From assembly GCF_009711225.1 (NCBI RefSeq), contig NZ_WMIE01000008.1:62001-126000 (forward strand): a stretch of DNA of 64,000 nt, given 5' to 3'. Position numbers and translations under genes: made by a program. This DNA is from Paracoccus aestuariivivens. Its GTDB lineage: Bacteria; Pseudomonadota; Alphaproteobacteria; Rhodobacterales; Rhodobacteraceae. The notes below the pieces were generated by a model. It did no database searches. It was not told the origin of the DNA and saw nothing but the letters and a program-made list of their open reading frames with translations. Below, one piece after another: positions 22,621 through 24,532 of the stretch (position 1 is the stretch's first letter; the number at the start of each line of letters is the position of its first letter).

Positions 22621-23046
22621 TCATTCCTTGTTCCAGATCCGGGGCTCGGCCAATTCGATCGAATTGCCCGCCGGATCTCGGAAATAGATTGACCGCCCAC
22701 CCTGAGGCCATTCGAAATCGGCCTCGATTGCCACGCCATTCGCGGTCAGGTGGTCGCGCCAATGCAGGATGGTTCCTCCGTCTATCGCGATGCAGAAATG
22801 CCCTTCGCCGTCGGTTCCGTGTGACGGTACGGGCAGACGGCTGTCAGCCGCAGGCGGCTTGCGGGTTGCGTCGGGGTCAAACACAAGCAGGATCTGCGCA
22901 CCGCAGCGGAAGAAGACGTGCCTTCCGGGTTGGTAGGCGATTTGCTGCAATCCCATGATTTTGACCCAGAAATCTGAAGCGGCAACCAGATCGCGGGCAT
23001 AAAGTGCGGTTTCCAGCGTACCAATGATGGGGGGTGGCTGCCTCAT
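22621..23046 (-). CDS. VOC family protein (glyoxalase/bleomycin-resistance fold)
   Basis: 141-residue vicinal-oxygen-chelate protein with two beta-alpha-beta-beta-beta modules: LETALYARDLVAASDFWVKIMGL at the start, GHFCIAIDGG in the middle (metal-ligand His), and SIYFRDPAGNSIELAEP at the end (metal-ligand Glu). Similar proteins include lyases, dioxygenases and FosX-like resistance proteins, so no substrate is assigned. ATG 23046 is chosen because it gives a normal family N terminus. Confidence 0.85.
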   Translation of the reverse strand: MRQPPPIIGTLETALYARDLVAASDFWVKIMGLQQIAYQPGRHVFFRCGAQILLVFDPDATRKPPAADSRLPVPSHGTDGEGHFCIAIDGGTILHWRDHLTANGVAIEADFEWPQGGRSIYFRDPAGNSIELAEPRIWNKE

Positions 23047-23266
23047 GCGATTAATCCTGCCACCAGAACGGGGATTGTGCCAGCTTGCCTTGTGCCGAAT
23101 ACGCCCATCAACGCTAATCTGCTGCTGGCTGATTTGGCCAAGTCGTTGCGAATGGATCGTTTCTGTTGCGACTTCCGTCGCGAGATTAGGATCTTGCGAT
23201 TGCACACCTGTCACGGCGATGTCACGCAATCGGATTAATCATCCGGCAGGACATATATTCAGGGGC

Positions 23267-23294
23267 TTGTCAGCTTGCGGTCACGATATATAGT
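23267..23294 (+). promoter_or_regulatory. Sigma-70-type promoter for a probable small RNA
   Basis: TTGTCA (23267-23272) and TATAGT (23289-23294) are separated by 16 bases, each one mismatch from consensus. The predicted start is near 23301. The signal is strong for this genome and no plausible gene starts soon after it. Confidence 0.6.
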
Positions 23295-23300
23295 CGGCCT

Positions 23301-23518
23301 CAAGACGTTCCGACAAGTTTCCGGGCAGATAATGCAGAGGGCCCATGCTGGACGACCTTGGTTATTTCCGAACTCCCACAACGCGTGAGCGGTTAGGCTT
23401 ACGCAGGCAGGCGATCTTTGGCTTCGAATGGGCCGAGATCTGTGTACGCATCAGGGTATCCAGTTCGTTTGCAAATCCGGAAGATTCCATCGGGCGCGTG
23501 TTCCTCACGCGCCTTTTT
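23301..23518 (+). ncRNA. Candidate structured small RNA (6S-like shape)
   Basis: About 218 nt between a good promoter (23267-23294) and an intrinsic terminator (23493-23518), in a 504-base gap without a convincing gene. It can fold as a long interrupted rod. TTCCGG (23319-23324) pairs with CCGGAA (23477-23482), GGCCCAT (23340-23346) with ATGGGCC (23428-23434), and the tip is a hairpin GCGTGAG/CTTACGC with loop CGGTTAGG. The open bubbles between the stems recall 6S RNA. tmRNA, RNase P and SRP RNA signatures are absent. The open frame at 23345-23554 spanning it crosses the terminator and looks incidental. Confidence 0.5.
23493..23518 (+). terminator. Intrinsic terminator upstream of the HNH gene
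   Basis: Perfect 8-bp stem GGCGCGTG/CACGCGCC with loop TTCCT followed by five T. It lies 32 bases before the HNH endonuclease ATG, so it ends an upstream transcript, most likely the candidate RNA. Confidence 0.88.
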
Positions 23519-23550
23519 AATTGCTGCAGGCAAGCCGCAGGAGGTGACGC

Positions 23551-24120
23551 ATGAACGTCCCCTTGCAGAACCTGCGGACCTTGATCCTGAATGCCGACAT
23601 GCAACCGCTCAGCTATGCGCCGCTGTCGGTTTGCACTTGGCAGCAGGCGATTGTCTCGGTGTTTCAGGATCGGGTTGTGCAGGTGAAAGCCTATGACAAC
23701 GTCCAGATCCGCACGGCTGCACGCGATTACGAGGTGCCATCAGTCATTGCGTTGAAGACCTATCGCAAGCGCAAGCACGTCGCCTTTACGCGCTATAATG
23801 TCTTTCTGCGTGACGAATTTCGCTGCCAGTATTGCGGCAAACGCTTTCCGGCCCGCGACCTGACTTTTGACCATATCGTGCCGCGCAGCAAAGGCGGGCA
23901 GTCGAACTGGCTGAATATCGTGTCGTGCTGCAGCAAGGATAACTTGCGCAAGGGCAGCAAAACGCCGTCTCAGGCCGGACTGAAATTGTTGCGCGAACCT
24001 TTTGTCCCGACCGCCTATCAGCTTGATGCCGCAGCCATGCGTTTACCTGGTGCTGCGGACCAGTTGCATCAGACTTGGATGGACTTCCTTTATTGGGATG
24101 CCGAGTTGGAAAACCGATAA
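23551..24120 (+). CDS. HNH endonuclease
   Basis: 189-residue HNH protein of a type found singly in many alphaproteobacterial chromosomes. The N terminus (LQNLRTLILNADMQPLSYAPLSV) is typical. The zinc knuckle begins CQYC (92, 95), the HNH core is LTFDHIVPRSKGGQSNWLNIV (H, N, N), and the second half of the knuckle reads CCSKDNLRKGSKTP (126-130), with Asp130 where a fourth Cys is usual. AGGAGGTGACGC precedes the ATG. Biological role of this family is not established. Confidence 0.88.
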   Translation: MNVPLQNLRTLILNADMQPLSYAPLSVCTWQQAIVSVFQDRVVQVKAYDNVQIRTAARDYEVPSVIALKTYRKRKHVAFTRYNVFLRDEFRCQYCGKRFPARDLTFDHIVPRSKGGQSNWLNIVSCCSKDNLRKGSKTPSQAGLKLLREPFVPTAYQLDAAAMRLPGAADQLHQTWMDFLYWDAELENR

Positions 24121-24139
24121 GAATGAAATACCGGCCGGA

Positions 24140-24532
24140 ATGAGCAGCCATCTGAAAAAATACGGAATATTCGCCAGCGGCTCGGCCATGGGGGCGGTGG
24201 TTGATTATGCAATCACCATGCTGGCTGCCAAGTTTCTTGGCATGTCGCCTGAACTCGCCTTGGGATTGGCGATGCTGTTCAGCGCGACGGCGGTATTCTT
24301 TTGGCACGACCACATCACCTTCAAATCCGCCGGCCAATCTCGCTTGGCGCGAAAATATCTGGCCTTCATGCTGTGGAGCGTGCTGGTTTATCTATTGCGA
24401 GCCGTGCTTCTTGTAGGATTCGGGATGGTTGGCTTGCCGCTGTCCATTGCGCTTGCCTTGTCCATCGGCCTCGCCTCGGTGGTCAATTACATCCTGTCAT
24501 CGCGTGCGATTTTCCGCACTCAGAAGGGGTAA
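24140..24532 (+). CDS. GtrA family membrane protein
   Basis: 130-residue protein with four hydrophobic helices, the GtrA/PF04138 pattern: KYGIFASGSAMGAVVDYAITML, LALGLAMLFSATAVFFWHDHITF, YLAFMLWSVLVYLLRAVLLVGF, and LSIALALSIGLASVVNYILSSRAIF. Members are thought to flip polyprenyl-phosphate-linked sugars. It ends inside the 3' end of the convergent glycosyltransferase gene, a natural partner. ATG 24140 gives the family start; earlier in-frame codons lie inside the HNH gene. Confidence 0.88.
   Translation: MSSHLKKYGIFASGSAMGAVVDYAITMLAAKFLGMSPELALGLAMLFSATAVFFWHDHITFKSAGQSRLARKYLAFMLWSVLVYLLRAVLLVGFGMVGLPLSIALALSIGLASVVNYILSSRAIFRTQKG

Follow-up and report, generated by a model that had tools for sequence, protein, structure and literature searches.

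The stretch at positions 23267-23518 of a 64,000-nucleotide window of the Paracoccus aestuariivivens genome (the whole stretch of DNA analysed, contig NZ_WMIE01000008.1) is, in our reading, fairly likely to be the leader of the HNH-endonuclease gene that starts at 23551. It would derive from what is left of an older HNH gene at the same position and act as a translation-coupled transcription attenuator. Comparison with other loci gives strong support for conservation of a promoter, a hairpin and a U-tract, for the correspondence of the leader to a canonical HNH gene, and for an open frame that overlaps the HNH start as ATGA. Termination in vivo, its relief by ribosomes and the conditions for that relief are what we infer. 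The features are as follows.

23267-23294, forward strand: promoter, with -35 TTGTCA and -10 TATAGT separated by a 16-base spacer; from sequence, a loose form of the pattern recurring before HNH genes.
23301-23344, forward strand: 5′ untranslated part of the leader, its transcription start placed from the position of the -10.
23345-23554, forward strand: leader ORF of 69 codons, the first of them a relic of the canonical HNH start, with a TGA stop that overlaps the HNH ATG (ATGA).
23493-23518, forward strand: intrinsic-terminator hairpin GGCGCGTG-TTCCT-CACGCGCC followed by TTTTT, within the leader ORF; from sequence and comparison.
23540-23544, forward strand: GGAGG, the likely HNH ribosome-binding site, from sequence.
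23551-24120, forward strand: variant HNH endonuclease of 189 aa (Pfam HNH_5, HNH, HNH_4), encoded after the leader.

The HNH protein of the window is a variant, with 51-55% identity to HNH proteins of the genus and 93% to that of P. litorisediminis. Close relatives of it (64-93%) made up 18 of the 80 loci kept from a search of named genomes, namely Paracoccus litorisediminis (93%) and 17 others, including other genera; the next locus stood at 52%. Among 394 family genomes the variant was found in 12, its own included (E <1e-90), and another HNH match in 363, the best of these at 1.8e-70 and some of them weak. A DNA search of 61 genomes matched the stretch in 6, again including its own. Four other genomes of the genus aligned to about 23267-23375 at 74-81% identity, and one further genome carried a 28-base piece. 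In these five the match sits just upstream of, or runs into, an HNH-endonuclease gene (for L002 and L004, as read from sequence), and in the four genus genomes the alignment crosses the HNH start codon, ATGCTGGACGA, which corresponds to position 23345 of the window. The HNH gene of the window starts later than this counterpart of the canonical start, at 23551.

Both kinds of gene occupy the same neighbourhood. The same carboxylesterase gene lies upstream of the variant in 20 of 29 loci and of the canonical gene in 66 of 91, both counts being lower bounds as the loci end at differing distances. In 24 variant genomes (12 from the search of 394 family genomes and 12 of the 18 from the named-genome search) there was a single strong HNH match each, at the variant's place, all others having E values of 2.9e-6 or worse. 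Since the upstream carboxylesterase is common to both kinds of locus and the variant genomes lack a second strong HNH match, the comparison indicates that, in all likelihood, the variant took over the position of the canonical HNH gene. A recognisable canonical N-terminal half still lies upstream of the variant in Microvirga makkahensis. Sequence that reads like a decayed canonical N-terminal half was seen before the variant HNH gene in L053, L055, L056 (Microvirga) and L063, each without the GCGCG hairpin described below; these loci perhaps show the replacement less far advanced.

The near-consensus promoter of the original prediction is present at 23267-23294, where TTGTCA-16-TATAGT matches the consensus at 10 of 12 positions. 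Taken alone this pattern is no better than chance: 2 promoter-like sites occur in the 3 kb surrounding the stretch against 1.2 expected, and TTGTCA-N15..17-TATAGT was found once in the genome, as was its backwards control. What raises it above chance is that the same pattern, in loose form, was found upstream of HNH genes elsewhere. Of 161 distinct canonical loci it preceded the gene in 137, where shuffles gave 1.7, and among variant loci it did so in 22 of 30, where shuffles gave 0.18. Canonical loci with the promoter comprised 101 of the 109 that have the hairpin and 36 of the 52 that do not. A further G+C-rich hairpin, GGGGCGGG..CCCGCCC, often comes directly after the promoter, as in the canonical loci L067, L071 and L073 and the variant loci L054 and L057. 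The best perfect stem in the 5′ UTR of canonical HNH loci averaged 4.54 bp, compared with 3.34 bp in shuffles, and reached at least 6 bp in 47 of 137 loci.

The terminator that had been predicted was likewise recovered, as a hairpin followed by TTTTT at 23493-23518. Its core, GCGCGTG-N4..6-CACGCGC, occurs at a single place in the genome (backwards control, 0), and the 3 kb surrounding the stretch contain 8 terminator-like sites against 2.9 expected. The window terminator is the counterpart of the canonical HNH codons KRVAFTRF. In canonical genes the codons for KRVAFTRF-NLF commonly read GAAGCGCGTG-GCNTT-CACGCGCTTC-AATCTTTTTC, that is, a hairpin and a U-tract, placed at codons 84-95 of the HNH alignment and inside the coding sequence itself. 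A perfect 10-bp stem was present in 84 of 109 canonical loci of a first, smaller set. The larger set held 169 loci (161 distinct, 130 with KRVAFTRF) and was not a random sample: 29 came from the search that yielded the HNH proteins of the genus, 62 from the 80 named-genome loci, and 78 were drawn from the upper part of the match list for the 394 family genomes. Among the 130 KRVAFTRF loci, 109 have a perfect 9-bp stem and 107 a perfect 10-bp stem; synonymous resampling, which ignores shared ancestry, gave means of 4.5 and 2.8 with maxima of 11 and 8 in 300 draws.

Codon choice around the stem followed the same direction. The 11 bases 3′ of the stem contained 6.66 T, against 4.95 by synonymous resampling (maximum 5.15), and the rare codon CTT was used in the U-tract by 92 of 130 loci, against 7% elsewhere in the same genes. 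Conversely GCG, at 45% in general use, was the loop codon in only 2 of 130; a GCG there may permit a competing fold. In four pairs of the stem both partners are synonymous (wobble) positions; the outermost of these pairs varies and the other three vary little. The outermost pair was GC in 83 loci and AT in 37, with a single GT and 9 loci unpaired (n=130), and parsimony on a FastTree tree counted 17 changes between GC and AT. Across 150 family loci stem and U-tract were both present in 107 and both absent in 32, with the tail alone in 9 and the stem alone in 2, an association that remains after correction for GC3, so that gene GC3 offers no explanation. For covariation and for the stem-tail link alike, well-supported branches provided just 7 independent pairs; the mean number concordant was 4.4 and 4.6, respectively, and the mean number discordant 0.0 (median p 0.0625).

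In the canonical alignment synonymous conservation is raised over a run of codons, 84-96 with the exception of 91. Two observations on the canonical genes count against the attenuator reading: the single codons 4, 30, 42, 62, 63, 72 and 184 show synonymous conservation similar to that of the hairpin codons, and the canonical hairpins are mostly weak terminators, 34 of 109 scoring above zero. The synonymous conservation of codons 4, 62-63 and 184, outside the terminator, is unusual in itself. Searched for as an exact 27-base string, the hairpin was matched once among 289 genomes of the class, in a family member; as the same string is absent from three of the four family genomes in that sample, the window's own included, this count shows merely that the hairpin form is not class-wide. 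In sum, the element is a G+C-rich hairpin with a U-tract that appears to be kept as an intrinsic terminator. It probably began as part of the older HNH gene's coding sequence, and it seems to be kept for its RNA shape.

We then compared the signals with the rest of the leader in 30 variant loci (the window and 29 others). The GCGCG hairpin was found in 15 of them, against 0.04 expected from shuffles, and in L062 its place is taken by another hairpin, unlike it in sequence but also followed by a U-tract. The other 14 have neither, which we count against the attenuator reading. On a d'Aubenton-type terminator score the 15 variant hairpins averaged 30, compared with -10 for the canonical ones (p 2e-11), the U-tract of the variant-locus terminators having improved once free of coding. 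Identities in three close pairs indicated that the interior drifts while the signals persist. Between the window and L046, DNA identity was 80% in the promoter and 5′ UTR, 50% in the interior, 73% in the terminator and 86% in the HNH gene; the corresponding values were 85, 61, 97 and 91% for L057/L060, and 76, 47, 92 and 83% for L054/L127. The leader interiors of L054 and L127 have a conserved block, GGGTGCGTCCGCTGA-TGG-CTGCGAATAC, and drift over the rest.

These data bear on two other readings of the terminator. It could be a mere leftover, or an insulator against upstream transcription, with HNH expressed by constitutive, unregulated read-through. Derivation of the leader from a decayed gene would agree with this, as would the 14 of 30 variant loci that lack a terminator (L062 counted as having one). 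A leftover should decay, yet the U-tract improves and the stem persists while the sequence before it drifts; an insulator is at odds with the canonical copy, which sits within the gene and so is unable to insulate it. We consider this reading quite unlikely. Far less probable still is that the inverted repeat functions not as an RNA hairpin but as an operator in the DNA, bound by a dimeric protein such as the HNH protein. An operator would account for arms and a 5-base spacer that are almost invariant across the 15 variant loci having the hairpin; it would not account for the retention at synonymous sites of a single-strand U-tract along with the stem, for an outer pair that switches on both sides together, or for the different hairpin and U-tract that take the same place in L062.

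The original prediction had placed a free-standing structured RNA, a long rod, between the two signals. The short unit stood up in so far as promoter and terminator are both present, by sequence and comparison; the structured RNA did not, neither the interior sequence nor its fold being consistently kept between them. The whole stretch folded with a z of -2.03 (6 of 200 shuffles as good), which fell to -0.62 (52 of 200) once promoter and terminator were removed, and the nearest homologue, in P. litorisediminis, gave +0.81. The rod is thus no better than shuffles when the promoter and terminator are left out, is not kept in P. litorisediminis, and is a product of chance. Fold z values for 12 leaders were -0.7, 1.4, -0.12, -3.0, -0.87, -1.55, -2.32, -2.61, -1.11, -0.18, -0.35 and 1.3. 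They show no consistent structure, and a non-exhaustive search identified no antiterminator pairing; the mechanism proposed here needs none.

An unlikely, though not negligible, alternative is that the ~218-nt product is a regulatory RNA that acts on other transcripts and that, as with UpsM of R. sphaeroides, arises when transcription ends early. Such an RNA would be in keeping with the conserved promoter and terminator, with UpsM as a described precedent in the same family (PMC5089854), with the block common to the L054 and L127 interiors, and with the three of 12 leaders (L049, L057 and L060) that fold more than 2 sd better than shuffles. It is opposed by the lack of consistent structure in the z values of the 12 leaders, and by an interior that falls to 50% identity between the window and L046 despite 86% in the HNH gene, and to 61% and 47% in the other pairs.

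Named RNA families gave no better account of the stretch. An Rfam covariance search matched no family in it, and the suggestion that the RNA might not be 6S held under this search, which returned neither 6S nor any other family. The 6S model (RF00013) had no match in the window at its gathering score and none in 23000-23800 at E values up to 10; the likeness to 6S lay in a rod-like single-sequence fold, the differences in the absence of a covariance match in the stretch and of a conserved rod with a central bubble, and we rejected this identity. The only 6S match of the genome lies on another contig (G000:C10:13215-13373, locus L007; 39.8 bits against 46.4 required, E 2.3e-6) and is perhaps its real 6S gene.

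Other identities were considered for the HNH gene and its leader. For the stand-alone HNH protein (window 23551-24120; also L009:1501-2037) the best NCBIfam matches are IscB and Cas9d, and a profile of the HNH subfamily run against solved structures matches TbaIscB, other HNH-nuclease chains and Cas9. It was because of these IscB and Cas9 matches that we took up a guide-RNA reading of the leader, which was rejected as the interior is not conserved and has no consistent fold. Nor is the protein a full RNA-guided nuclease: it has 189 aa, in which Pfam finds HNH domains alone, and the IscB and Cas9d models match only residues 63-139 (38.4 bits against 175 required) and 73-141 (50.8 against 375). 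Phage origin was set aside, 23200-24150 having no match in phage records, as was a mobile or plasmid origin, where 6 partial matches in plasmid records included 5 in Paracoccus replicons of >1.4 Mb. Many PADLOC defence models matched through the HNH domain (best E 1e-7 to 1.5e-7), a domain similarity only and not a known defence system. The usual arrangement of programmed frameshift sites differs from a hairpin upstream of the slippery tract. Frameshifting at the U-tract would be a poor fit, the hairpin here lying upstream of that tract.

The gap had also been described as having no good gene. It is crossed by the 69-codon frame at 23345-23554, which opens like canonical Paracoccus HNH proteins (MLDD..FRT) and meets the HNH start in an ATGA overlap. 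We examined this frame in 28 variant loci, excluding two near-identical ones and using start codons as selected for the test; the loci are partly related, and the counts are not independent cases. In 23 of the 28 the HNH gene begins ATGA. Across these 23 there were 6 stops in the frame ending at the TGA, compared with 43 and 46 in the other two, and stop-free leaders numbered 17 in the TGA frame against 7 and 5. Over all 28 loci the stops were 11, 47 and 53. The upstream ORF thus appears to have been kept open in evolution, as a uORF-dependent attenuator would need.

Of the 15 loci that have the GCGCG hairpin, 9 have the frame of its codons (KRV) running on to the HNH start region. It falls short in the other 6, which we count against the attenuator reading; among these, L047, L054, L127 and L130 have another frame that runs into the HNH start. 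Indels within the ORF were of 3, 6 and 12 bases in one close pair with an open KRV frame and of 6 and 24 in another, all multiples of three. L054 and L127, in which the other frame is open, differ by gaps of 1, 3, 16 and 6 as aligned, again counted against attenuation, with a net ORF length difference of 6 codons. The leader ORF is probably translated, judging from these patterns. Its peptide sequence is not conserved, and translation itself, rather than the peptide, therefore seems to matter.

A translation-coupled attenuator would work as follows. Transcription would begin just downstream of 23294, and the terminator at 23493-23518, within the leader ORF, would end some transcripts to give an RNA of ~218 nt. 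As long as translation of the leader ORF keeps up with RNA polymerase, ribosomes would cover the hairpin; transcription would continue, and the ribosomes would enter the HNH gene by way of the ATGA overlap. A lag in translation would let the terminator hairpin form, and the nuclease would not be made. On this model the promoter, start codon and terminator of the older gene would have stayed on as the leader of a divergent HNH gene.

The component parts are all of known kinds. UpsM, described as a 268-nt 5′ UTR, is the 5′-leader RNA of the dcw cluster in Rhodobacteraceae (PMC5089854); it resembles the present case in its bacterial family and in having a leader whose Rho-independent terminator yields a short RNA before the gene. 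The predicted window terminator differs in lying within a reading frame and matching the coding sequence of an older gene. uORF-dependent transcription attenuation has been described for duf1127 of Sinorhizobium meliloti (PMC12218461), and the uORFC-8-2 motif precedes cysS of Rhodobacterales (PMC8632094); in both, as these reports describe them, the downstream gene is proposed to depend on termination and on whether an upstream ORF is translated. Unlike them, the window leader has no identified C-rich element or amino-acid-specific codons, its uORF peptide is not conserved, and its ORF overlaps the gene (ATGA) and contains the terminator. RNAs with 3′ ends within coding sequences have been described in E. 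coli, where aceK int is ascribed to intrinsic termination (terminator score 5.9) and most other ORF-internal ends to RNase processing (PMC7815308); the basis here is instead family-wide synonymous-site conservation and survival after gene replacement. The proposed effect of ribosomes has a likeness in an EF-P study, which describes translation preventing intrinsic terminator hairpins in coupled systems, the difference being that those were E. coli experiments on polyproline-encoding mRNAs (PMC5021804). Full-text searches of open-access literature, which covers few subscription papers, were in part aimed at other questions; they brought up no description of an intrinsic terminator conserved within this HNH gene, or of a replaced gene turned into a leader. 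A word search of the main texts of sRNA reports on Paracoccus and Ruegeria found neither HNH nor endonuclease.

Chance alone could place a termination signal within a coding sequence. In the present case the terminator has been kept at synonymous sites in many genera of one family, with paired changes, and has survived replacement of the gene. More tentatively, and with the balance of our judgement slightly against it, the coding-sequence terminator may be a sensor of transcription-translation coupling across Rhodobacteraceae and a unit of selection of its own, kept along with the promoter and start after gene replacement, and sharpened, the dead gene now serving as a leader ORF. If true, this would provide a natural experiment on why a nuclease should be expressed only when ribosomes match the pace of RNA polymerase, and Paracoccus, Rhodobacter and other culturable relatives would make a clear case in which to test it.
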